From Flavobacteriales bacterium (lineage in GTDB: Bacteria; Bacteroidota; Bacteroidia; Flavobacteriales_D; Sanyastnellaceae): 64,000 nucleotides of DNA. Positions 1,408 through 62,153 of this stretch are shown here, piece after piece (position 1 is the stretch's first letter; the number at the start of each line of letters is the position of its first letter). Where the stretch lies: the NCBI GenBank assembly GCA_018402085.1, contig JAGYJM010000002.1, forward strand, positions 3,053,501 to 3,117,500. Reading direction: 5' to 3'. Both the position numbers and the translations under genes were made by a program. The notes below the pieces were generated by a model. It ran no database searches, was not told the origin of the DNA, and saw nothing but the letters and a program-made list of their open reading frames with translations.

Positions 1408-1470
1408 GTTGCTCCACTCCCTGAGGGGAGATGTCGATTTTCACTTCGTGAAAGATCGACTGAGGGGTGT
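1408..1470 (-). repeat. Family B hairpin repeat (reverse orientation)
   Basis: Read on the minus strand: ACCCCTCAGTC, then a stem GTCGATCTTTCAC / GTGAAAATCGAC around a GAA loop, then ATCTCCCCTCAGGGAGTGGAG. The arms are unrelated to those of other copies yet almost fully complementary. Confidence 0.75.
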
Positions 1471-1516: not shown

Positions 1517-1567
1517 ACCCCTCTGTCCACCCCGCCGGGGTGGACATCTCCCCTGATTCCAGGAGAA
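1517..1567 (+). repeat. Family B hairpin repeat (forward orientation)
   Basis: ACCCCTCTGTC, perfect 9-bp stem GTCCACCCC / GGGGTGGAC with GCC loop, then ATCTCCCCTGATTCCAGGAG. Preceded by CTTACGAAGGTGCTCCAAAA, a lead-in shared in part with the copies at 3195 and 20772. Confidence 0.75.
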
Positions 1568-3044: not shown

Positions 3045-3094
3045 ACCCCTCTGTCCTCGCAAAGCGAGGACATCTCCCTTTAGCCAGGGGAGAA
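3045..3094 (+). repeat. Family B hairpin repeat
   Basis: ACCCCTCTGTC, stem GTCCTCGC / GCGAGGAC around AA, then ATCTCCCTTTAGCCAGGGGAG. Confidence 0.75.
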
Positions 3095-3194: not shown

Positions 3195-3297
3195 ACCCCT
3201 CTGTCCTCTCAAAGCGAGGACATCTCCCATTAGCAAGGGGAGAACTTTTTATTCACCAAAAATCTGCATTTATCAATCGGCAATCGCCCGTCAGACC
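3195..3297 (+). repeat. Left direct repeat flanking the toxin-antitoxin pair (contains a family B hairpin)
   Basis: Begins with family B (stem GTCCTC / GAGGAC) and continues through AATCTGCATTTATCAATCGG to TCAGACC. Nearly the same 103-104 bp recur at 3841-3944; the two copies differ mainly in the hairpin loop and a few single bases. Confidence 0.85.
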
Positions 3298-3840: not shown

Positions 3841-3944
3841 ACCCCTCTGTCCTCGATTTGCGAGGACATCTCCCCTTAGCAAAGGGAGAACTTTTTTATT
3901 GACCAAAAATCTGCATTTATCAATCGGCAATCGCCCGTCAGACC
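3841..3944 (+). repeat. Right direct repeat flanking the toxin-antitoxin pair (contains a family B hairpin)
   Basis: Family B with stem GTCCTCG / CGAGGAC and ATTTG loop, then the same 60-odd bases found at 3240-3297. Distance between the two copies is about 646 bp. Confidence 0.85.
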
Positions 3945-4025: not shown

Positions 4026-6326
4026 CTACTTCTCATCTCCCTGCCAGGGCATCCAGCGGAGGCCGCCGTAGGCCATGGCGCCGAAGACCGGACCCCAGAC
4101 CAATGAGGCGTCAAAAAACTGGCTGTCGGGGTTCTCTGCACTCAAGATGGCGTTCGGCTGCTGGAAGTTCAGCAGGTTTTCGCCACCCAGATACACTTCA
4201 AATTGCTTCGAGAATACCCGGGTGATCTGCGCGTTCAGCAAGAAATAATCGTCGCTGCGGGCGTCGAGCTGAAATTCCGGATCATTCGCCTGTGTGTTCG
4301 GCAGGCGCTGATCACCGATCCACTGAAAGGTGGCGTCGAATTTCCACTGGGCCTTCTTTTCGTTGGCTTTCGTTTCATACCCGACGTTTGCGAAGGCGCG
4401 ATGGGTTGATACCAGCGGCACGTCCAGCAGGCCTTCGTCTTCGTAGTTACCCTTCACTTCAAGCCAGCGGTAGGCCAAACGTACTTCTGTGCGGCGTGCC
4501 GGAGACCACGAAAATTCGGCCTGGGCACTGTTCGAGAAGCTGCGTCCGTCGAGGTTGTAGAAGCGTACTTCACGCGGATTTTCGAGGTCGGTAATCACCT
4601 GCTCTTCGAAATCGGTCCGGTAAAAGTCGAGCGACAAGGTCGCCTCGCGATACAACAAACGGAATCGCTGCAAGAAGTTCACGCCGTAGTTCCAGGCGAC
4701 TTCCGGACGTAGCCCGAAGCCGTCAACGTTGGCGTCACCCGAGATGACCCATGCACGGTTGCTCGCGAGCTGCCCGATGTTCTCCATGATGACGTTGCTG
4801 GTGCGGTATCCCTTACCGGCCACTGCTTTTACCGAGGTGTTCTCCGTGAAGCTGTATCGCGCATGCACACGGGGTGTCCAGAATGTACCAAAGAGGTTGT
4901 TCTCATCTACGCGCATGCCGGCGACCAGAGTGAAACGCTCGAGGTGCGACCAGGTGTATTCAAAGAAAGCACCCGGTACTTGCTCGGTTCGCGTGAAGCG
5001 TGTTGAATCAAGTGTCTCGTCGTAGTCATCGTGCAGGTAGCTTATACCGGTAGTGAACTTGTGGTTCGTATTTCCGATGATCGATGAGTACAGGAGGTTC
5101 GCGCGAAAATTCCGCTGTACGCCACTGTAGTCGCGCTCACCAAAGTTTGAACGTTGCTCGTGGTACTCACCTGAGAGTTGGCTGCCGAAGCTCTTCCAGC
5201 TTTGCCCCGGGAATACGTAGCCCGTTTTGGCGCTGAGTTCAACGTGATCGGTATTCACTTCGGCGCGCCAAAGGTCTTGAATGGAGCCGCCTTCAGCCAG
5301 TGAACTCATCTGTCCGCTGCGGCTGTTCATCTGAAGCGCCGTTAGGGTATATTCCCCTTCGAGCCCGCGGTCACCGAGGTACTTCCATTGATTGCGGAGA
5401 ATAGCATCCTGCTTCAGCGGGTTATCCATGAAGCCGTCACCGTTGTTATCCATTTCCACTTCATTGTACTCCGTATGAAACATGACGGTCGTTGCCCACT
5501 TTCGTGAGACGTTCTGACGGGTATGCACATTCAGCTCTACTCGTCCGCCCTGGTTGGCGTACATGTTGAGATAATACTTCTCGGCATTGATCGGATCTTT
5601 CATCGCAATGTTGATCTGCCCTGTTAAGCTCTCGTACCCGCTGGTCACTGAACCCACCCCTTTCGAGATGAAGATCTGGTGAATCCAGGGGCCCGGCACG
5701 TAGTAGAGTCCGTACACGGTTGAAAGTCCGCGCACCGTCGGAATGTTGTTCTTGGTCATCTCCACGTACTTACCGTCGAGTCCGAGCATCCTGATCTGTC
5801 GTGTACCGGTCACGGCATCCGTGAAGGAGGCGTCAACACTGGCATTGGTTTCAAAGCTCTCGCTGAGGTTGCAGCACGCGGCTTTGGTGAGTTCGCGGCT
5901 ATCTATGGTTTGTGCGATGAGCGGATTGAGCATCTCCATGCGGGTGCTACCTGATTCGCTGACGACTTCGGCGGCATCGATTTCGGTGCCGGGCTGCAGC
6001 ACCACCTCGATCCATTTTTGGTCTTTATACACCACAAACCCTGTTGTGTAGCCGATGAAGCTAAACACAAGGGTGTCAGTGGCCTGGTCGGTATCGAGTT
6101 TAAAGAACCCGGAGGCATCGGTGCTGACACCTACTTGTGTTCCTTTCCAGTAAACGCTTGCGCCGGGGAGGGGGTCAAAGCTGCCGTCGCCAGACGGACA
6201 GGGTACTTTAACCTTCCCTTTGACTTTGCCGGGCGTGTTCGCATCCTGCGCTTTTGCGCAGAAAAAGAAAGAAAACGAAAACAAGAAAATCAGACCAAGG
6301 CGCAACTTACTTTTTGCCTTCGTCAT
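4026..6326 (-). CDS. TonB-dependent receptor, probable metal (copper-type) transporter
   Basis: A 766-residue outer-membrane receptor. Start chosen at the ATG at 6326, which gives a proper signal peptide (MTKAKSKLRLGLIFLFSFSF..CAKAQ); it overlaps the upstream HMA gene by 20 bp, implying coupled translation. Order: signal peptide to about residue 26, carboxypeptidase-regulatory-like domain about 45-110 (GASVYWKGTQVGVSTDASGFF), plug about 130-240 (RQIRMLGLDGKYVEMTKNNIP) with a Cys pair (AACCNLSES), then a beta-barrel to the aromatic C-terminus. The neighbours carry metal-binding motifs, so a soft-metal substrate is likely; this is inference. A family A hairpin encodes the signal-peptide cleavage region. 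Confidence 0.88.
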   Translation of the reverse strand: MTKAKSKLRLGLIFLFSFSFFFCAKAQDANTPGKVKGKVKVPCPSGDGSFDPLPGASVYWKGTQVGVSTDASGFFKLDTDQATDTLVFSFIGYTTGFVVYKDQKWIEVVLQPGTEIDAAEVVSESGSTRMEMLNPLIAQTIDSRELTKAACCNLSESFETNASVDASFTDAVTGTRQIRMLGLDGKYVEMTKNNIPTVRGLSTVYGLYYVPGPWIHQIFISKGVGSVTSGYESLTGQINIAMKDPINAEKYYLNMYANQGGRVELNVHTRQNVSRKWATTVMFHTEYNEVEMDNNGDGFMDNPLKQDAILRNQWKYLGDRGLEGEYTLTALQMNSRSGQMSSLAEGGSIQDLWRAEVNTDHVELSAKTGYVFPGQSWKSFGSQLSGEYHEQRSNFGERDYSGVQRNFRANLLYSSIIGNTNHKFTTGISYLHDDYDETLDSTRFTRTEQVPGAFFEYTWSHLERFTLVAGMRVDENNLFGTFWTPRVHARYSFTENTSVKAVAGKGYRTSNVIMENIGQLASNRAWVISGDANVDGFGLRPEVAWNYGVNFLQRFRLLYREATLSLDFYRTDFEEQVITDLENPREVRFYNLDGRSFSNSAQAEFSWSPARRTEVRLAYRWLEVKGNYEDEGLLDVPLVSTHRAFANVGYETKANEKKAQWKFDATFQWIGDQRLPNTQANDPEFQLDARSDDYFLLNAQITRVFSKQFEVYLGGENLLNFQQPNAILSAENPDSQFFDASLVWGPVFGAMAYGGLRWMPWQGDEK
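6242..6261 (-). repeat. Family A hairpin inside the TonB receptor signal-peptide region
   Basis: Minus-strand sequence CTGCGCAAAAGCGCAGGATG. Read in the coding frame it gives CAKAQDA, spanning the predicted cleavage site. Confidence 0.75.
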
Positions 6327-20771: not shown

Positions 20772-20825
20772 CCCCCTCTGTCCACCCCGTTGGGGCGGCT
20801 ATCTCCCCTGATTTCAGGGGAGACT
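20772..20825 (+). repeat. Family B hairpin repeat (forward)
   Basis: CCCCCTCTGTC, stem CCACCCC / GGGGCGG around GTT, then CTATCTCCCCTGATTTCAGG. One pair in the stem is G-T, so this copy is slightly decayed. Confidence 0.7.
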
Positions 20826-20850: not shown

Positions 20851-20899
20851 GCTCTCCTTGCTAAGGAGAGCTGTCCCGCGGATGCAGGACTGAGAGGTT
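20851..20899 (-). repeat. Family B hairpin repeat (reverse)
   Basis: On the minus strand ACCTCTCAGTCCTGC, loop ATCC, GCGGGACAGCTCTCCTTAGC, ending AAGGAGAGC. It forms an inverted pair with the copy at 20772. Confidence 0.7.
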
Positions 20900-21699: not shown

Positions 21700-21854
21700 G
21701 TCGTTCCGGAAGTTGCGTAAGTTTTCGGCAAGGTACAACACAACGGGGGAGGGCTGCAGACTATAAGACCTATCGACCGATGGGCGGGTGGTCATTCTGG
21801 GAGCATGGGAAGCAGGGAGGTCGGGAGCAAGCGAGGTAGGTAGAATTTTTTTGT

Positions 21855-21874
21855 CAGCGTGAAAACGCTGGATG
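21855..21874 (+). repeat. Family A hairpin, tandem array unit 1
   Basis: CAGCGTGAAAACGCTGGATG. Further identical copies at 22024-22043, 22193-22212 and 22359-22378 in units 2-4. Confidence 0.8.
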
Positions 21875-21920
21875 GCGCCGCATCCTTGCGGCGCTATCAT
21901 TTTATGGTAGCCTTTGAGAG

Positions 21921-21939
21921 GGACGCCTTCCAGGCGTCC
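21921..21939. repeat. Family C 19-bp hairpin, unit 1
   Basis: GGACGCCTTCCAGGCGTCC; repeated at 22090-22108 in unit 2. Confidence 0.7.
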
Positions 21940-22257
21940 ATTGACCTATCGACGTATGGACGTATGGACCTTTCGGGGAAGCAGGGAGGTCGGGAGCAAG
22001 CGAGGTAGGTAGAATTTTTTTGTCAGCGTGAAAACGCTGGATGGCGCCGCATCCTTGCGGCGCTATCATTTTATGGTAGCCTTTGAGAGGGACGCCTTCC
22101 AGGCGTCCATTGACCTATCGACGTATGGACGTATGGACCTTTCGGGGAAGCAGGGAGGTCGGGAGCAAGCGAGGTAGGTAGAATTTTTTTGTCAGCGTGA
22201 AAACGCTGGATGGCGCCGCATCCTTGCGGCGCTGTCGTTTTTTAAGCCCGCAGATAG

Positions 22258-22276
22258 GGACAGCTCCCAGCTGTCC
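22258..22276. repeat. Family C 19-bp hairpin, unit 3
   Basis: GGACAGCTCCCAGCTGTCC. It takes the place of the GCCT/AGGC version of units 1 and 2, with both arms changed in step. Confidence 0.7.
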
Positions 22277-22485
22277 GAGAATTGATGGATGACCACCATT
22301 TATGCAGAATGGGAAGCAGGGAGGTCGGGAGCAAGCGAGGTAGGTAGAATTTTTTTGTCAGCGTGAAAACGCTGGATGGCGCCGCATCCTTGCGGCGGTA
22401 CAACTCACCATTTCGAATCACAATTTCGATTTCACGGTGTACACTCAGTGTGCGCTTACATTTCCATTCTCGCATTGGTTCTGCA

Positions 22486-23628: not shown

Positions 23629-24623
23629 GCCTTCGTCTGCAGATAGTACTCACCGGTTTCCCGGATCACCTCATCGAGTGGTGTAAACCTGAATCCGCTG
23701 GCCTCAATTTTCCCGGCATCGTAACGGAACGACTTCGAGGCATTGCGAATGCCCTCGCGTGTGACAAAGGCGCGTTTTCCGGTGAGTTTTTCAAGTAACG
23801 ATACGCTAAGATGCACGGCACGCATCAGCCAGGGGGCCGCAGCCGCATCCGGCGCTTTTGCGCCGATCGCCCCACCCACCTTCCGGAACAATTCACCGTA
23901 GGTTAAATGACTCGTATTGAGAATGTAACGTTCTGCTGAAAGGTCGTTCTCAAGCAGATGGAAGCAGGCCGCCACTACATCCTGTACGGCCACAAAACCA
24001 TTGCTGCCCGGCGGATAAAAGGGCATGCCCTTGTCAATCTGCCTGAAAATCTCAGCCGAACTGCGCTCAAAATCGCCGATACCCAGAATGATCGAAGGGT
24101 TGACTATAAAAACCTTCAATCCTTCTTCAGAGCCGCGCCAGACCTCGCGCTCTGCCATGTGCTTGCTGCGCGCGTAATTGGTGAGCTCCGGATCTTCTTT
24201 CCACTCTGAAGCCTCCGTCACCGCGTCCTGCGAGCGGTTTCTTCCGAGTGCAGCCACCGACGAGATATAAACGAAAGCCTCAAGTCCGGACGTCGCCAGC
24301 GCTGCATTGACCATATTAAAGGTGCCTTCAACATTCGTTTTGAAGAGCTTCGACTTGTCTTTACGGTGAAAAGAAACGAGTGCCGCAGCGTGAAACACCT
24401 GCTTGCAACCATGCATTGCCTGAGTAAGCACCTCCACATCGAGCAGTTCGCCATCTATGAACTCGAGCAGATTGCGGTCAGCACCGGTATGATCCAGCAA
24501 GCGGTTGAGGGAAGTAGTATCTGAGGTCGGACGCATCAGGGCGCGCACCGGCTCACCCGCCTTGAGCAAAGCAGCAATGAGGTGCATGCCCACCATACCT
24601 GTACCTCCGGTCACCAGATTCAT
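23625..24623 (-). CDS. NAD(P)-dependent epimerase/dehydratase (extended SDR)
   Basis: A 332-residue Rossmann enzyme: MNLVTGGTGMVGMHLIAALL nucleotide-binding glycines, FHAAALVSF, the catalytic YARSKHMAE (Y-x3-K) at about 148-152, and NPSIILG. The group resembles dihydroflavonol-reductase-like or 3-beta-HSD-like SDRs; the substrate is unknown. The GAIGAKAPDAAAAPW segment around residue 255 is encoded by a family A hairpin. A TACCTTTG box ends 4 nt before the ATG. Confidence 0.9.
   Translation of the reverse strand: MNLVTGGTGMVGMHLIAALLKAGEPVRALMRPTSDTTSLNRLLDHTGADRNLLEFIDGELLDVEVLTQAMHGCKQVFHAAALVSFHRKDKSKLFKTNVEGTFNMVNAALATSGLEAFVYISSVAALGRNRSQDAVTEASEWKEDPELTNYARSKHMAEREVWRGSEEGLKVFIVNPSIILGIGDFERSSAEIFRQIDKGMPFYPPGSNGFVAVQDVVAACFHLLENDLSAERYILNTSHLTYGELFRKVGGAIGAKAPDAAAAPWLMRAVHLSVSLLEKLTGKRAFVTREGIRNASKSFRYDAGKIEASGFRFTPLDEVIRETGEYYLQTKA
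23846..23865 (-). repeat. Family A hairpin inside the epimerase gene (sense)
   Basis: Minus strand CGGCGCAAAAGCGCCGGATG, identical to the intergenic copy at 578-597. Coding frame yields GAKAPDA. Confidence 0.78.
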
Positions 24624-31474: not shown

Positions 31475-31485
31475 TCGCTTGTTAG

Positions 31486-31505
31486 CATCCCGCGCTTTTG
31501 CGCGG
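31486..31505 (-). repeat. Family A hairpin between sufA and sufB
   Basis: Minus strand CCGCGCAAAAGCGCGGGATG. It could act as an mRNA processing or stability signal in the operon. Confidence 0.72.
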
Positions 31506-31524
31506 AAAAAAAGAGAAAAGACTT

Positions 31525-35770: not shown

Positions 35771-37002
35771 CAGAAAGCATCAGCACATACCCCATTGAGC
35801 GCATTCGCAGCGAGTTTCCGATCCTTCGTCAAGAGGTGCGCGGACGTCCGCTGATCTATTTCGACAATGCTGCCAGCAGTCAAAAGCCCGTGGCGGTAGT
35901 CGAGTCGCTGCGCGAATATTACAATCATTACCACTCAAACATCCATCGCGGCGTGCACCACCTGGCGCAGCTCGCAACCGAAGCTTTTGAGGCTACACGT
36001 GACAAGGTGCAGGCTCACCTCCACGCGAAAGCGCGGGAAGAAGTCATCTTCACCGCGGGCACCACTGACGGTATCAACCTTGTGGCGCAGACATGGGGAC
36101 GAAAAAACATTGGAAAGGGTGATCTGATCGTGATTTCCGGACTGGAGCACCACTCGAACCTGGTGCCCTGGCAGATGCTCGCTGAAGAGAAGGACGCTGC
36201 GATTGCGATCATTCCGGCACTCGAAAACGGTGAGCTCGATCTCGAAACCTATAAGCAGCTACTTGAGCGTCGCCCGAAGCTCGTCACGTTTAATCATGTT
36301 TCAAACAGCCTTGGAACCATTAATCCGGTCGTTGAAATGACGCGCGCCGCGAAAGCGGCGGATGCGATTGTGCTCATTGATGGTGCGCAATCGATTCCAC
36401 ACGTGCAGGTCGACCTGCAGTCCATTGGCTGCGATTTTTATGTGTTCAGCGGACACAAGGCTTATGGTCCTACGGGTACCGGTGTGCTCTGGGGGCGTAA
36501 AGAGCTGCTCGAGAGCATGCCCCCCTGGCGAGGCGGCGGCGAAATGATTGCGGACGTGAGTTATGAGCGCTCAACCTGGAATGAATTGCCTTATAAGTTT
36601 GAAGCCGGCACTCCAAACATCGCAGATGTGGTGGCCCTCGGCGTGGCGATCGACTGGATCAACCGTATTGGTGTAGCAGCCATTGGTGCGCACGAAGCGA
36701 TGCTGACCCAACGCGCAACTGACGGACTCAAGTCGATTTCGGGCATGCGCATCATAGGCGAAGCCAAAGAAAAAGCAGGTGTTGTCTCCTTTCTCATTGG
36801 TGACCAGCACCCGTATGATGTAGGCACCCTTCTTGATCAAATGGGCATTGCCGTCAGAACCGGCCACCACTGCACCCAGCCGCTCATGCACCACTTCGGC
36901 ATTGCAGGAACGGTTCGTGCATCATTTGCGGCCTACAACACTGAACAGGAAGTCGATCAGTTTGTAGCGGCCACCGAAAAGGCCGCCGGGATGTTGGGGT
37001 AA
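35767..37002 (+). CDS. sufS: Cysteine desulfurase SufS
   Basis: A 411-residue PLP enzyme that takes sulfur from cysteine. Landmarks: YFDNAASSQKPVAV, NIHRGVHHLAQ, FTAGTTDGINLVAQTWG, SGLEHHSNLVPWQ, LIDGAQSIPHVQVD, the PLP lysine in SGHKAYGPTGTG (Lys231) and the active-site cysteine in RTGHHCTQPLMHHF (Cys369). The C-terminal RXGxHCxxP class is group II (SufS). Residues about 193-199 (AAKAADA) are encoded by a family A hairpin without changing the usual protein length. Confidence 0.95.
   Translation: MTESISTYPIERIRSEFPILRQEVRGRPLIYFDNAASSQKPVAVVESLREYYNHYHSNIHRGVHHLAQLATEAFEATRDKVQAHLHAKAREEVIFTAGTTDGINLVAQTWGRKNIGKGDLIVISGLEHHSNLVPWQMLAEEKDAAIAIIPALENGELDLETYKQLLERRPKLVTFNHVSNSLGTINPVVEMTRAAKAADAIVLIDGAQSIPHVQVDLQSIGCDFYVFSGHKAYGPTGTGVLWGRKELLESMPPWRGGGEMIADVSYERSTWNELPYKFEAGTPNIADVVALGVAIDWINRIGVAAIGAHEAMLTQRATDGLKSISGMRIIGEAKEKAGVVSFLIGDQHPYDVGTLLDQMGIAVRTGHHCTQPLMHHFGIAGTVRASFAAYNTEQEVDQFVAATEKAAGMLG
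36345..36364 (+). repeat. Family A hairpin inside sufS (sense)
   Basis: CGCCGCGAAAGCGGCGGATG. Coding frame gives AAKAADA. Confidence 0.78.
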
Positions 37003-37800: not shown

Positions 37801-37842
37801 AGTCTGACGGGCTGATGGTCTGACGGTCTTAACGGGCTGGGG

Positions 37843-37879
37843 GCTGACTGGCTGACTGGCTGACTGGCTGACTGGCTGA
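37843..37879 (+). repeat. 8-bp tandem repeat GCTGACTG, four copies
   Basis: Perfect units, with a fifth partial copy, just outside the likely left end of the IS110 element. Preceded by GTCTGACGG words (37801-37830). Confidence 0.85.
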
Positions 37880-37944
37880 AATTTACAAAAGCTGCTCCTT
37901 TAGTTTGTGAAACGGTAACTTGAACGAGTTAATCAAAGTTGAAC

Positions 37945-38035
37945 AAGCTTCCGAAAGAGACAGAGTGAATCATTAGCTGCTAAGGCGTTAGGGCCTAAGA
38001 GGGGATTACGAACTCTGTCTCTTTCGAATGGATAG
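37945..38035 (+). ncRNA. Candidate IS110 bridge-RNA-like structure
   Basis: Perfect 15-bp inverted repeat CGAAAGAGACAGAGT (37952-37966) / ACTCTGTCTCTTTCG (38012-38026) with 45 nt between, holding a minor TTAG/CTAA stem. It lies upstream of the transposase, where IS110-group elements encode their bridge RNA. Transcription is not shown. Confidence 0.4.
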
Positions 38036-38120
38036 GCCTAGATAGAAATACAGTCTTGTGAACTATTCAAAGGACTTAGGACACCCCATTCTATTCGGAA
38101 GCATAAATGTACTTACTCAA

Positions 38121-39101
38121 ATGTACTACCTAGGAACAGACATCTCCAAAGAAAAGCTCGATGTAGCTGTAAAAGACGGAGAAGGCAACGTAGTAGAACT
38201 GGTGGTTATCACCAACAAACCAGCGCATATCAAGAAGTGGCTGAAGAGCTTCCTTAAGCAGTATGACTGCACTGTGGAAGACCTGGTGATCTGTTGTGAG
38301 AACACCGGTATCTATGGCAAACCTCTTGAGACAGCTTGTACAGAATTTGGCATAGCGCTTTGGGTGGAGCATGCTTACAGAATCAACAAAGCCAGTCATG
38401 ACTTGCGCGGCAAGTCAGATGCTCAGGATGCTGTTCGTATTGCTGACTACTGCTTGCGCTACAAAGATCGCTTCCAGCCCTTCAGCCCAGTTGGCGAGGA
38501 AGTTGAAGAGTTGCAAGAGCTCAATGGTGTTCGTGACGATCTGATGAAGCGCAAAAGTCAACTGATGAACCAGCTTAGAGAAGCAAAAGAGTTCGCTCCT
38601 AAACGCTACAAGATCTTGAAGAGGCACTTGGGTCCGATGATCAAAATGGCTGAACGTGAGCTGAAGAAGGTCAATGAGGAAATCAAAGCACTCATCGAAG
38701 CCAATGACCAACTCAACAAGAATGTCAAACTCATCTGTTCAGTACCAGGGGTTGGACTTCAAAATGCCATCGCCATCATCGTTGCTACAGACAACTTCAC
38801 GCGCTTCAAATCGGCCAAGCACCTTGCCTGCTATGCAGGTGTGGTTCCCTTCCCAAATCAATCAGGAAAACTCATCAAGCGCGATCGGGTATCGAGACAC
38901 TCTAACAGAAATCTCAAACGACTACTTCACATGGCAGCTATGGCGATGATCCGTTGTGACGATGAAATCAGAGCATACTTCGAACGTAAAGTCGGGCAAG
39001 GAAAACACAAAATGGCCGTCATTAATGCAGTCCGAAACAAAATCGTTCACCGAATCTGGGCAGTGGTGCAACGCCAAGAACCCTACGTGAAAACGACCTG
39101 A
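38121..39101 (+). CDS. IS110-family transposase (DEDD, Transposase_20)
   Basis: A 326-residue transposase from the ATG at 38121 (MYYLGTDISKEKLDVAV), which places the first catalytic Asp correctly; an ATG-less extension to 38058 is possible. The RuvC-like half carries ENTGIYGKPLE and DLRGKSDAQDAVRIADY; the C-terminal half carries SVPGVGLQNAIAIIVATDNFTRFKSAKHLACYAGVVPFPNQSGK and SRHSNRNLKRLLHMAAMAM with the likely nucleophilic Ser. No frameshift or stop, so probably functional. These enzymes recombine DNA under guidance of a bridge RNA. Confidence 0.92.
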   Translation: MYYLGTDISKEKLDVAVKDGEGNVVELVVITNKPAHIKKWLKSFLKQYDCTVEDLVICCENTGIYGKPLETACTEFGIALWVEHAYRINKASHDLRGKSDAQDAVRIADYCLRYKDRFQPFSPVGEEVEELQELNGVRDDLMKRKSQLMNQLREAKEFAPKRYKILKRHLGPMIKMAERELKKVNEEIKALIEANDQLNKNVKLICSVPGVGLQNAIAIIVATDNFTRFKSAKHLACYAGVVPFPNQSGKLIKRDRVSRHSNRNLKRLLHMAAMAMIRCDDEIRAYFERKVGQGKHKMAVINAVRNKIVHRIWAVVQRQEPYVKTT

Positions 39102-39126
39102 AAAACTTGTTTTCAAACATAGAAAT

Positions 39127-39173
39127 CCCCTCCCCGAGGGGAGCTGTCCCGCATTTGCGGGACTGAGGGGTGC
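39127..39173 (-). repeat. Family B hairpin, left flank of the DUF559 cassette (reverse)
   Basis: On the minus strand ACCCCTCAGTCCCGC, loop AAAT, GCGGGACAGCTCCCCTCGG, ending GGAGGGG. Perfect 7-bp central stem. Confidence 0.82.
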
Positions 39174-39177
39174 GTCT

Positions 39178-39552
39178 TCACAACATCTTTTTTTCTAATT
39201 CCTTCTCAATCGCCTTAAGAATTGAACTTGGTGACTCCCATACCATTCGGTTTTCAAAACGTAGCACCTTTAGTCCTCGCCTCTCCAGATAATCATCGCG
39301 CGCCTCGTCAGTTAAGGCTTGTTCTCCCTTAATGTGCCCATTACCATCAAGTTCAATCACGAGGTTTAATGACGCACAATAAAAGTCAACTACAAACGGT
39401 CCAAATCCGTGCTGCCTTCGGAACTTCAATCCAAATGTTTTCTTGCCTTTTAAATATTTCCATAGCTCGCGTTCAGCCGGTGTTGCATCATTCCTAAGGT
39501 GTTGACGAAAAGACTTTTGAATATTTCGATTGGTATTGCGATAAGATGACAT
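39178..39552 (-). CDS. DUF559 (Vsr-like) endonuclease-domain protein
   Basis: A 124-residue PD-(D/E)xK nuclease-fold protein: LRNDATPAERELWKYLKGKKTFGLKFRRQHGFGPFVVDFYCASLNLVIELDGNGH, with the catalytic-type Asp in VVDFYC and Glu in VIELDG, then LKVLRFENRMVWESPSSIL, the classical DUF559 ending. It is a complete gene. DUF559 proteins are related to Vsr nucleases and have no settled function. Inverted family B hairpins lie 4 bp downstream of its stop and 26 bp upstream of its start, so gene and repeats look like one unit. Confidence 0.9.
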   Translation of the reverse strand: MSSYRNTNRNIQKSFRQHLRNDATPAERELWKYLKGKKTFGLKFRRQHGFGPFVVDFYCASLNLVIELDGNGHIKGEQALTDEARDDYLERRGLKVLRFENRMVWESPSSILKAIEKELEKKML

Positions 39553-39578
39553 ATTAGATAGAATTATACTGTTCTCAC

Positions 39579-39633
39579 ACCCCTCAGATCACCGCACGGC
39601 GGTGATCAGCTCCCCTCAAGGAGGGGAGCAACC
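39579..39633 (+). repeat. Family B hairpin, right flank of the DUF559 cassette (forward)
   Basis: ACCCCTCA, stem GATCACCG / CGGTGATC around CACG, CAGCTCCCCTC, AAG, GAGGGGAGCAACC. The outer CTCCCCTC / GAGGGGAG forms a second stem. Confidence 0.82.
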
Positions 39634-39748
39634 TGAACTTCATAGCCCCAATTTGTCCAAAAGTCTAATGCATTAAACGAACATTTTACCATCGTTCCCC
39701 TTTACTTTGTAGATGAGCTACATCATACCGTTAGACCATTAGACTTTT

Positions 39749-42144: not shown

Positions 42145-42481
42145 TAGGTGAAGATCCCTATCATTCGGCTTATAAGACAGGCCTCGGGTACCAGGCGGCA
42201 AACGGCGGGCTCGCTCTCAATAACACCCGGAACTACAGGCGCCCAGCGCTCTTTGGTGTTCTATGCTCATCTGCGGTTAGCGGGGGCAGCAATCTGTTAT
42301 TGGCACCGCTAATCGCATCCGCCGCTTCTGCGGCGATAAAAGCTGTTAGATAAAGCTACACGCCGATAAATGTGCCGAGGGTTTCATGCTCGCCGTTCCT
42401 TTCAAACCGTCAAACGACAAGTTGGTGAAACTGTTTCTACATTCTTGTATATTCGCCGCTTAAATCATATAATATCTACCC
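42145..42481. other. Intergenic region with family A hairpin
   Basis: No gene. Contains a family A hairpin (42316-42335) preceded by a longer imperfect dyad (GCGGTTAGCGG..CACCGCTAATCGC, 42275-42315). A TATATTCG box at 42448-42455 may drive the lipoprotein gene. Confidence 0.5.
42316..42335 (-). repeat. Family A hairpin, intergenic
   Basis: Minus strand CGCCGCAGAAGCGGCGGATG, identical to the copy inside the gene at 54692-54711. Confidence 0.75.
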
Positions 42482-54143: not shown

Positions 54144-55112
54144 TTATAAATCCAGCAACCAGCCAAACACCAAAGGCGCAACAATGGTAGCGTCCGACTC
54201 GATGATAAAGGTAGGCGTTTGTTCTCCGAGTTTACCCCAGGTAATTTTTTCATTCGGAACGGCTCCCGAATACGATCCGTAGCTTGTGGTACTATCAGAT
54301 ATCTGACAAAAATACGCCCATAGCGGCACTTCATCGCGCCCCATGTCTTGATGCAGCATTGGCACCACGCAAATAGGGAAGTCTCCGGCAATTCCTCCAC
54401 CAATCTGGAAGAACCCGATGCCTGCCCCGACAGCCTGCTTTGTATACCACTCTGCCAACCACATCATATATTCAATTCCTGACTTCACCGTTGAGGGCTT
54501 CACCTCGCCCTGCAGGCAGTGAGCCGCGAAGATGTTGCCAAGGGTTGAGTCTTCCCATCCCGGACAAATAATCGGGAGGTTCTTCTCGGCTGCCGCGACC
54601 ATCCATGAATCCTTAGGGTCAATTTCATAATACTGTTCAAGCACTCCACTCCGAATGGCTTCGTAAAAATATTGGTGCGGAAACTTTCTTTCATCCGCCG
54701 CTTCTGCGGCGACCCAAAGATCAACCATGTGCTGCTCAAGCCTTCTGAAAGCTTCCTCTTCCGGGATGCAGGTATCCGTCACACGGTTGAGCCCGCGTTG
54801 CAGCAGCGCCTGCTCATCAGCTCTGGTCAGATCGCGGTAATTCGGCACCCGCTCGTAATGGCTGTGCGCCACGAGGTTCATCACGTCTTCTTCAAGGTTC
54901 GCACCGGTGCAAGAAATGATGTGCACCTTGTCTTGCCGGATCATCTCTGCAAGGGTTTTGCCCAGCTCGGCCGTACTCATCGCCCCGGCAAGCGAAACCA
55001 GCATTTTACCTCCTTTTTCAAGGTGTGCTTCATAGCCTTTCGCTGCGTCTTTGAGCGCGGCGGCATTGAAGTGCAGGTAATTGCTTTCAATAAATGATCG
55101 AATCTGTCCCAT
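54144..55112 (-). CDS. Deoxyhypusine-synthase-like enzyme
   Basis: A 322-residue NAD-dependent family member: KMLVSLAGAMSTAELGKTLAEMIRQDKVHIISCTGANLEEDVMNL, PIICPGWEDSTLGNIF, GFFQIGGGIAGDFPICVVPML and SYSGAVPNEKITWGKL, where the WGK lysine corresponds to the catalytic Lys of deoxyhypusine synthase. Bacteria lack eIF5A, and related enzymes in bacteria are thought to make homospermidine or act on polyamines (family knowledge). Its ATG overlaps the speB stop by one base. A family A hairpin encodes AAEAADE. Confidence 0.87.
   Translation of the reverse strand: MGQIRSFIESNYLHFNAAALKDAAKGYEAHLEKGGKMLVSLAGAMSTAELGKTLAEMIRQDKVHIISCTGANLEEDVMNLVAHSHYERVPNYRDLTRADEQALLQRGLNRVTDTCIPEEEAFRRLEQHMVDLWVAAEAADERKFPHQYFYEAIRSGVLEQYYEIDPKDSWMVAAAEKNLPIICPGWEDSTLGNIFAAHCLQGEVKPSTVKSGIEYMMWLAEWYTKQAVGAGIGFFQIGGGIAGDFPICVVPMLHQDMGRDEVPLWAYFCQISDSTTSYGSYSGAVPNEKITWGKLGEQTPTFIIESDATIVAPLVFGWLLDL
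54692..54711 (-). repeat. Family A hairpin inside the DHS-like gene (sense)
   Basis: Minus strand CGCCGCAGAAGCGGCGGATG. In frame it gives AAEAADE. Confidence 0.77.
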
Positions 55113-60900: not shown

Positions 60901-62153
60901 GCGGTCGCCAGGCATGGTCCGGCAGCTCGGGCGGCTGGATACAAACGATCATCGATTTGAGCTCGTACGCCGGGCAAACCATCAGCATTCGCTGGCGCAT
61001 GGCTTCCGATGCGTTCGTCAGCGGCGAAGGCTGGTATGTAGACGATGTCTTCCTTGGAGATGTATTGGTTGATTTCACCAACACGGCTTGCGTTGACAGC
61101 GATCAAACAGCACCTTTCTGTGCCAGCCAATACACCTTCATTACAGAACAAAGCTGCGTGCCACAATCATGGTACGAAGATGCGGATGGTGACGGATTCG
61201 GAAACGCAGAAGTGACCACCTCTGCCTGCCTGGCACCTGTAGGCTTTGTCAGTGACAACACCGATTGCGACGACACCCGTGAGGATGTGTATCCCGGTGC
61301 GCCAGGTACCGCTGAAGGCATTGACAATAATTGCAACGGAGATATCGACGCCGCAGAATGTGCACCACAGATGTGGTATGAAGACGCCGACGGCGATGGG
61401 TTTGGAAACGCAGAAGTGGCCACCTCTGCCTGCCTGGCACCTGTAGGCTTTGTCAGTGACAACACCGATTGCGACGACACCCGTGAGGATGTGTATCCCG
61501 GTGCGCCAGGTACCGCTGAAGGCATTGACAATAATTGCAACGGAGATATCGACGCCGCAGAATGTGCACCACAGATGTGGTATGAAGACGCCGACGGCGA
61601 TGGGTTTGGAAACGCAGAAGTGGCCACCTCTGCCTGCCTGGCACCTGTAGGCTTTGTCAGTGACAACACCGATTGCGACGACACCCGTGAGGATGTGTAT
61701 CCCGGTGCGCCAGGTACCGCTGAAGGCATTGACAATAATTGCAACGGAGATATCGACGCCGCAGAATGTGCACCACAGATGTGGTATGAAGACGCCGACG
61801 GCGATGGGTTCGGAAACGCAGAAGTGGCCACCTCTGCCTGCCTGGCACCTGTAGGCTTTGTCAGTGACAACACCGATTGCGACGACACCCGCGAGGATGT
61901 GTATCCCGGTGCGCCAGGTACCGCTGAAGGCATTGACAATAATTGCAACGGTCTTGTTGAAGCAACTGAAGCCGTTCCTGTTTGTCTGGGCGACTTCAAC
62001 AATGACCTTTTCATCAATGTATCGGATCTCCTGATCCTTCTGAGTGATTTTGGTTGTTCAGGCAATTGCATTGCCGACCTCAACGAATCGGGCGATGTCA
62101 ACAGCAGTGATATGCTTGTATTCCTCTCGCTCTTCGACACTACTTGCGAATAA
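57960..62153 (+). CDS. M36 (fungalysin-type) secreted metalloprotease with MopE-like repeats and dockerin-like end
   Basis: A 1397-residue secreted protease. Signal peptide MLRLVFTALMVFIVAQINAQ; FTP propeptide (about 40-200); the catalytic M36 domain with HEYGH (residues 569-573) and the third zinc ligand Glu near 597 (MGEGWSDYLAL), interrupted by a PA domain (about 445-545); a DUF11-like domain (about 780-850); a jelly-roll/MAM-like domain (about 860-1040); four 68-residue repeats (WYEDADGDGFGNAEV..NCNG, from about 1071) of the MopE metal-binding kind; and a dockerin-like C-terminus (GDFNNDLFINVSDLLILL..). No standard T9SS domain. Large extracellular protease, probably calcium dependent. Confidence 0.9.
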   Translation: MLRLVFTALMVFIVAQINAQQSTDLATELLSSKFADRFEPSDLQGWIHHRSINNRESGYTYHYYQQSESGVPIHNAMMTIVTSPEGGVIHVADRFIAGKTRLSKKSTAGTNPEQALKSAARHLGVNAGDVSVMEVGSAPLMEGIAEAEDLALEPIPFQLVYQNLDDQQLALCWEFVIRMKDHQNWWQIRVDAATGAVLDKNNWIVNCGASHLSDGEHSASCLTEVPGRNPLLRAADATPEATPAPLMANSYNVFPEPLESPYDGSRSIISLPWNNNLTASPFGWHDTNGSAGAEYTITRGNNVWAQEDRNGNNGTGFSPDGGAALDFDFPLDLTQQPVTYQEAAITNLFYWNNLCHDIFYNYGFDEQSGNFQANNYGNPGFGGDEVLADAQDGSGTNNANFGTPPDGQRPRMQMFEWTFAAVPSFTANGISYTAITASFGPNTGVYSGELVLANDGSGEPTLACNALVNPPDYNGKVVLIDRGTCTFVEKVLNAQAEGAIAVIVAQNTGDAPFSMGGAEPAITIPSVMVSQADGQALKDAMNNGTVNVNIDLPASVNRDSDLDNGVIVHEYGHGVSIRLTGGAGNVSCLFNNEQMGEGWSDYLALILTMKPGDAATDARGIGNYSLGDGPNGVGIRPFPYSFDLGVNPVTYNDISGLSIPHGVGSVWCSMLWDMTWLLVDQHGWDPDIYNGTGGNNIALQLVIEGLKLQPCEPGFVDGRDAILLADQLLYGGQHQCLIWEAFARRGLGAGASQGSSNNVGDGIEDYSTPGSCDILISKTSAGEMEAGSTMTVTLEVTNNTGGQATNVTINDAIPAEVSYVDGSASCAVTVNGNDLTFNLGSLNSGETVTCTYSVEAPLDPFSVFQINDDVEGGQADFVVETGSGAFQWSLNGTRFNSPSTSWFAPDPGTISDQYLVLENISDVNPSTFLSFWHFFNTETDWDGCVMEVSTNGGGSWSDLAPSITQNGYNSTINTNPDSPISGRQAWSGSSGGWIQTIIDLSSYAGQTISIRWRMASDAFVSGEGWYVDDVFLGDVLVDFTNTACVDSDQTAPFCASQYTFITEQSCVPQSWYEDADGDGFGNAEVTTSACLAPVGFVSDNTDCDDTREDVYPGAPGTAEGIDNNCNGDIDAAECAPQMWYEDADGDGFGNAEVATSACLAPVGFVSDNTDCDDTREDVYPGAPGTAEGIDNNCNGDIDAAECAPQMWYEDADGDGFGNAEVATSACLAPVGFVSDNTDCDDTREDVYPGAPGTAEGIDNNCNGDIDAAECAPQMWYEDADGDGFGNAEVATSACLAPVGFVSDNTDCDDTREDVYPGAPGTAEGIDNNCNGLVEATEAVPVCLGDFNNDLFINVSDLLILLSDFGCSGNCIADLNESGDVNSSDMLVFLSLFDTTCE
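61170..61965 (+). repeat. 204-bp tandem repeats in the protease gene, 4 copies
   Basis: Units start at 61170, 61374, 61578 and 61782. Units 2 and 3 look identical at DNA level; units 1 and 4 differ at a few sites. Each codes for 68 residues. Confidence 0.92.

Follow-up and report, generated by a model that had tools for sequence, protein, structure and literature searches.

DUF559 is a common protein family of unknown function, and hairpin repeats headed by a run of C are common, unexplained intergenic repeats. To our knowledge, the mobility of hairpin repeats has until now been tied to HuH/Y1 enzymes only. In the REP/TnpAREP (RAYT) systems, including REPtrons and REPINs, dispersed intergenic hairpins, single or in inverted pairs, lie beside one small nuclease gene. 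The RAYT enzyme and its repeat co-vary, most REPs carry a GTAG tetranucleotide, and tnpAREP genes are reported to occur mostly once per genome and to show no sign of mobility (PMC8266576). The DUF559 enzymes are themselves a known family, Vsr-like and kin to the EDxHD homing endonucleases. One member of the latter, I-Bth0305I, is described as a long protein of several domains whose target spans almost 60 bp (PMC3943268). A Thermosynechococcus DUF559 gene has been placed in the EDxHD homing family, with no mention of repeats in the cited part of that paper (PMC9403480), and an experimentally studied DUF559 protein, Caulobacter VsrA, has been interpreted as acting in mismatch repair (PMC12907096). 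Judged from titles and the beginnings of abstracts, the open-access literature searched yielded no earlier report of a pairing between DUF559 and hairpins.

The DUF559 gene described here lies in a 64,000-nucleotide stretch of Flavobacteriales DNA (the window). On either side it has a hairpin repeat that is dispersed in its genome, as RAYT genes do. By analogy, the pairing is best read as working like REP/RAYT with a different enzyme, and here too enzyme and repeat co-vary. It is not a member of the REP/RAYT group, because the enzyme is a PD-(D/E)XK nuclease rather than HuH/Y1 and the repeat lacks GTAG: the repeats have a C-run head and a CCCCTC-type hairpin, and neither GTAG nor CTAC occurs in the two cassette repeats of the window. 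Unlike tnpAREP, DUF559 genes are often present several to a genome and vary between relatives at fixed sites. The EDxHD homing endonucleases are kin by sequence and fold, and cassettes present or absent at fixed sites are a further likeness, but the window protein is a lone chain with little beyond the catalytic domain, tied to dispersed hairpins. Fold and Pfam domain are shared with Vsr and Caulobacter VsrA (PMC12907096), whereas the window copy has hairpin repeats alongside and no adjoining methyltransferase gene among the ORFs identified there. Miniature inverted-repeat elements (MITEs) with autonomous partners are also similar, in that elements with and without a gene have the same terminal inverted repeats (at Hymenobacter site 2, below); they differ in that no transposase gene lies between the repeats here and no target-site duplication was seen.

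The window nuclease gene and its hairpin repeats

The window ORF matches PF04480 (DUF559) with an E-value of 4e-29 (101.1 bits, cut-off 20.6) and lies, as originally predicted, between inverted copies of a hairpin repeat (Table 1). The second Pfam match of the protein, PF18741, fell below its cut-off, and the HuH/Y1 transposase domain PF01797 was absent from it. The predicted structure (pLDDT 87) aligns with the DUF559 structure 3hrl (Z 15.3, 1.1 Å over 94), with I-Bth0305I (3r3p; Z 11.1, 2.9 Å over 96) and with Vsr (1cw0; Z 9.5, 2.5 Å over 100), and the 3r3p profile also matches the protein at an E-value of 4e-7. By sequence and modelled fold, the closest relative of known function is thus the homing endonuclease I-Bth0305I. 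Residues of catalytic type (E27, Q47, D56, E67, D69, H73, D82 and R98) are invariant or nearly so. In PADLOC, residues 49–100 matched DpdF, a phage-defence protein, in its N-terminal part (E-value 4e-7), which we read as a common nuclease domain. DUF559 genes encode an intact nuclease fold and are under purifying selection, with a median dN/dS of 0.11 (range 0.05–0.19) over 13 pairs; among eight further pairs one value was undefined, two pairs whose genes hardly differ (dS 0.04) had values of 0.41 and 0.49, and five lay at 0.11–0.27. The source genome (3.78 Mb, 2 contigs) holds two DUF559 matches, whose proteins are only 47–52% identical and so lend no support to recent activity in that genome.

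Table 1. Positions of the nuclease gene, hairpin repeats and neighbouring elements in the window
Feature	Position	Strand	Remarks
DUF559 endonuclease gene	39178..39552	-	124 aa; Vsr/I-Bth0305I-like PD-(D/E)XK fold; intact ORF
Left hairpin repeat	39126..39172	-	Head CACCCCTCA toward gene; variable stem 39146-39152/39157-39163
Terminal hairpin of left repeat	39130-39143		CTCCCC-GA-GGGGAG
Right hairpin repeat	39578..39629	+	Head CACCCCTCA toward gene; variable stem 39587-39595/39599-39607
Terminal hairpin of right repeat	39609-39616/39622-39629
Gene-less copy	1426..1467	-	Extent of search pattern; heads-inward pair with 1518..1552, 50 bp apart
Gene-less copy	1518..1552	+	Extent of search pattern; CTG...CATCTCCC subtype
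Gene-less copy	3046..3078	+	Extent of search pattern
Gene-less copy	3196..3228	+	Extent of search pattern
Gene-less copy	3842..3874	+	Extent of search pattern
Gene-less copy	20773..20807	+	Extent of search pattern
Degenerate gene-less copy	20853..20898	-	Family D16; oriented like left repeat of cassette
Stretch missing at same site in relatives	37801..39748	.	1,948 bp; contains IS110 gene and repeat-DUF559-repeat cassette
IS110-family transposase gene	38058..39101	+	Pfam PF02371, PF01548
CATCC-GCGC..TTTTGCGC hairpins	6240-6262, 23844-23866, 31484-31506, 36345-36367, 42314-42336, 54692-54712

The two flanking copies of this two-hairpin repeat are inverted, with their heads inward. On its own strand the left copy reads CACCCCTCA-GTCCCGC-AAAT-GCGGGAC-AG-CTCCCC-TC-GGGGAG, and the right copy CACCCCTCA, then GATCACCGC-ACG-GCGGTGATC, then AGCTCCCCT...AGGGGAGC. 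They lie 5 bp from the stop codon and 25 bp from the start codon, respectively, the predicted distances of 4 and 26 bp each being off by one. The original prediction also held that each central stem, although different in sequence, is self-paired, and this proved correct. Over 24 distinct copies, hand-picked from genome-wide pattern matches, the arms of the variable stem pair at 7.1 of 8 positions within a copy, vs 4.7 after arms were swapped between copies. The second DUF559 gene of the source genome has the same repeat on both sides in the same arrangement, and all four flanks of the two genes carry the repeat close by. At least seven further copies had been expected in the window; six were found by a strict pattern, together with one degenerate copy. 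The strict pattern has 65 matches in the genome, a few of which look like chance, vs 8 for a reversed control pattern, so the genome is not saturated with the repeat. The concern that the flanks were chance neighbours in a repeat-saturated genome is excluded by these counts and by the decay of hairpin density with distance described below. An Rfam search of the window at the gathering threshold returned one tRNA only and no RNA family for the repeats. The window also holds a second family of short hairpins, unlike the CCCCTC repeat (last row of Table 1), and direct repeats at 61161-62072 and 21807-22479 with spacings of 204 bp and 169 bp.

At the window site, two relatives of the same genus have a DUF59 gene followed after approximately 10 bp by dxr, with neither cassette nor IS110 gene. 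The cassette was most simply gained between these two genes in the source lineage. Because the IS110 gene is missing from the relatives as well, the site is not a clean case of occupied and empty alleles, and the gains of cassette and insertion sequence are inseparable. The IS110 reading frame stops 25 bp outside the left repeat, and a DNA search found no second IS110 copy in the source genome. Relatives of IS110 target REP-like hairpins; this gene is probably a neighbour of the cassette and not part of it. The inserted stretch has, by eye, repetitive AGTCTGACGGGCTGATGG-like sequence on each outer side (37801-37880 and 39655-39748), and the left of these has short matches elsewhere in the source genome.

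Association of DUF559 genes with hairpins across genomes

We scanned 250 bp around standalone DUF559 genes of the same phylum for hairpins with a C-rich 5′ arm (C-first) and for the mirror type (G-first). C-first hairpins lay near 82 of the 98 genes, and on both sides of 45, vs 48 and 3 of 434 control ORFs from the same loci, which came from a greedy long-ORF picker rather than a gene caller. G-first hairpins were found near 15/98 DUF559 genes and 52/434 controls. The predicted enrichment beside DUF559 genes of related genomes is therefore present. Sixty phylum loci were taken in order of HMM score among the standalone matches listed, not at random, with one contig-end locus omitted; ORFs of at least 250 aa (260 aa in the cross-phylum set), mostly fused forms, were excluded, and 4/102 phylum and 7/76 cross-phylum genes were dropped for short flanks. 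Repeats common to both flanks (score at least 28) were direct in 51/99 cases and inverted in 40/99, vs 14 and 10 of 434 controls. The detector, which misses the window's own right repeat, found no C-first hairpin at 16/98 phylum and 13/69 cross-phylum genes.

Four comparator families of the same phylum gave far lower C-first counts: 4/26 for 23S-IVP, 3/27 for GIY-YIG, 7/27 for Y1 transposases (with G-first hairpins also at 7/27) and 1/28 for dxr, dxr loci that re-found the window gene being left out, or 15/108 when pooled. A link to small mobile genes of any kind can be set aside, as GIY-YIG, 23S-IVP and Y1 genes were not enriched (27, 26 and 27 usable loci, respectively, out of 30 per family). 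In a survey of genomes with named sources, comprising 80 loci whose record titles point to more than ten phyla, C-first hairpins were seen at 56/69 DUF559 genes vs 36/206 controls, on both sides at 31 vs 2, and G-first hairpins at 11/69 vs 28/206. Pooled over 115 genes, C-first density fell from 5.80/kb at 0–100 bp to 0.30/kb at 1.6–3.2 kb, while G-first density over the same distances went from 0.39 to 0.26/kb. Among 12 plasmid-collection loci, picked for variety among 40 matches listed and lacking controls, 11 had at least one C-first hairpin and 2 a G-first one; the C-first carriers belonged to Gamma-, Beta- and Alphaproteobacteria, Cyanobacteria and Deinococcus, and the Geobacillus locus had none. 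The link between gene and hairpin is thus specific relative to the four comparators, and crosses phyla.

A DUF559 match is present in 170 of 296 sampled genomes of the phylum, often as several genes per genome. One hairpin form, CCCCTCC..GGAGGGG, was counted 927 times in the 126 genomes where DUF559 matched strongly, some of them with fused forms only, and 135 times in the 170 genomes lacking such a match, kinship being ignored; the reversed control gave 16 and 29, respectively. Outside the phylum, DUF559 genes of Pseudanabaena and Picosynechococcus lie among CCCCC..GGGGG hairpin repeats, which suggests that these cyanobacterial repeats belong to the same class. C-first hairpins also occur near DUF559 genes at one Neisseria gonorrhoeae locus and two E. 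coli loci; those in E. coli are weaker, and a G-first hairpin is present there as well.

The orientation of the repeats relative to the gene is mixed. The original prediction had compared the layout with that of RAYT genes and REP palindromes; this is supported in part, by the enriched cross-phylum link, by cassettes that vary at fixed sites and by repeat types that go with nuclease clades, whereas inverted, gene-facing heads proved to be only one arrangement. Over 178 genes (356 flanks), the nearest repeat faced the gene at 73 flanks and away from it at 50, and had heads on both sides at 14; 91 flanks were not assignable, and at 128 the detector (which overlooked the right repeat of the window) recorded no C-first hairpin. 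With 50 facing away, and direct repeats at least as common as inverted ones, a heads-inward inverted layout is ruled out as the rule. Outward heads, as in the clade I cassettes inspected in Hymenobacter (see below), look like a transposon with inverted ends, and inward heads, the form of the window cassette, resemble a gene set between two complete repeats.

Cognate pairing and alleles at fixed sites

The type of repeat follows the clade of the nuclease, also when clades are compared at a single site or in a single genome. Over all pairs of 60 named loci, protein identity correlates with hairpin similarity, and it does so as well over cross-phylum pairs alone (rho 0.34), where none of 2000 permutations gave a value as high. 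In Hymenobacter, two DUF559 clades that are approximately 35% identical occur at one site, with repeat heads like CCTCACCCC beside clade I (type I) and like AACCACCCC beside clade II (type II). With head motifs defined after examples had been seen, every clade I gene that could be typed (10/10) and all but one of those in clade II (13/14) had the repeat type of its clade (p 6e-6, kinship ignored); 5/15 clade I and 2/16 clade II genes were untyped (7/31 together). The two clade III genes both had type II repeats. Both clades occur together in three genomes (G223, G361 and G378), and there too the repeats of each gene are of the type that goes with its clade.

These cassettes are present, absent, exchanged or oppositely oriented at fixed sites. 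At Hymenobacter site 1, for which 57 of the 101 genomes searched had both flanks among the matches listed (58 loci, one a duplicate), an intact DUF559 ORF was found in 23/57 (10 clade I, 13 clade II), a gene-less spacer of at most 264 bp in 13/57 and other sequence in 21/57. Three of the loci with other sequence retained DUF559 traces, one nearly full length, and some of the gene-less spacers, at least four, consist of a repeat pair whose heads are of type I. Clade I cassettes occur at other loci too (in G361, G378 and G403). At site 2, covered by the 22 of 23 genomes with both flanks among the matches listed (G416 was left out), 11 loci had a cassette that ends in long terminal inverted repeats, 2 (L448 and L449) had a gene-less pair of these repeats, and 2 had neither cassette nor pair. 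By eye, the terminal inverted repeats are common to these gene-less loci and to gene-bearing L452–L461, and in L449 mainly the repeat arms align with the cassettes among the matches listed. Occupied and empty alleles therefore coexist at both sites. Unrelated inverted-repeat elements occur in 7 of the 22 site 2 loci. A GAGACGCGA...TCGCGTCTC-type inverted-repeat element was seen in L463, L464, L466 and L467, with a variant in L457, so that this spot takes several families of element.

In Pontibacter, two loci (L295 and L309) carry a cassette at one site in opposite orientation, with proteins 70% identical. Three groups of related species, of two, three and three loci, have cassettes in common at the same site, so that many cassettes are inherited and have not moved recently. 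The gene and its repeats had been proposed as a candidate mobile cassette, and the differences in presence, type and orientation at fixed sites, together with the two same-genus relatives without the cassette, agree with this. Comparison of orthologous sites had also been expected to define the ends of the cassette; it revealed these differences, but fixed ends were not found among the sites compared, nor was a transposition event caught there. No target-site duplication was seen by eye at site 2, where the flanks are only approximately 75–83% identical.

Models for the nuclease and its hairpin

Our data are consistent with a model in which DUF559 genes and hairpin repeats probably make up a mobile nuclease/hairpin system, taken broadly enough to include strict homing. 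We give about even chances to the wider proposal of a class of mobile elements, found across bacteria, in which a Vsr-like PD-(D/E)XK nuclease without kinship to known hairpin-repeat transposases moves itself and its cognate hairpin and is the source of CCCCTC-type hairpins in many phyla. The full cassette would be repeat-nuclease-repeat, the window copy being one such cassette, and dispersed gene-less repeats and repeat pairs would be its non-autonomous partners. The nuclease would recognise its cognate hairpin, probably extruded or single-stranded at replication or repair, and nick or cut it, and host repair may then place a copy of either the whole cassette or the hairpin alone at a new site, using the flanking repeats as ends or as homology. 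Elements with and without the gene have sites and repeat types in common, as would be expected if the repeats have such a role. The numbers of CCCCTCC..GGAGGGG rise with the presence of DUF559, and the enzyme thus probably helps to spread bare repeats. Dozens of apparently intact copies persist in the source genome beside two nuclease genes, which makes it unlikely that the nuclease cuts its repeat efficiently in plain duplex form; action on a folded or transient form of the repeat is more likely.

The narrowest form of this explanation is also its most serious rival. DUF559 would be a free-standing Vsr/EDxHD homing endonuclease that cuts gene-less repeat pairs, the empty allele, whereupon gene conversion across the flanking repeats inserts the cassette, while something else spreads the repeats. 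Kinship to I-Bth0305I by sequence and fold favours this, as do the Hymenobacter sites with gene-less repeat pairs and cassettes of matching repeat type, and inverted flanks would permit either orientation, as in L295 and L309. The many apparently intact repeats beside two nuclease genes count against it, and homing alone would not make the abundance of one hairpin form track DUF559 genome-wide; we regard strict homing as possible but doubtful. The repair reading begins from the same fold, since the match to Vsr (Z 9.5) and the Caulobacter VsrA study (PMC12907096) would suit a Vsr-type mismatch endonuclease beside repeats present for unrelated reasons. It leaves the link, the cognate pairing and the differences between relatives at fixed sites unexplained, and is very improbable.

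The remaining alternatives deny the nuclease any part in the spread of the repeats. In a passenger role, DUF559 genes would be cargo surviving between repeats that a different enzyme moves, for example a RAYT (Y1 transposase); in favour of this, movement of REPs is ascribed to Y1 enzymes (PMC8266576), and the window genome has one Y1 match. Y1, GIY-YIG and 23S-IVP genes of the phylum show no link, however; the window genome's Y1 gene has, by eye, no such hairpin in its 250-bp flanks; repeat type follows the DUF559 clade; and three repeat-flanked DUF559 loci come from two genomes, of which one has no Y1 match and the other a match below the cut-off. We consider a passenger role unlikely. It is very improbable that DUF559 genes and hairpins merely collected in permissive intergenic spots, the hairpins being terminators or insulators. 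The unrelated elements at Hymenobacter site 2 do indicate that some spots are generally permissive, but same-phylum comparators are not enriched, C-first hairpins alone are, and the pairing is clade-specific.

Overall, the mobile nuclease/hairpin reading gives DUF559 a likely substrate and the repeats a likely maker, and it adds an enzyme class to hairpin-repeat mobility. Hymenobacter offers natural experiments for its study, with two clades that have their own repeats at one site, alongside empty and gene-less alleles. Pairs of DUF559 genes and hairpins look like a little-noticed kind of mobile DNA.
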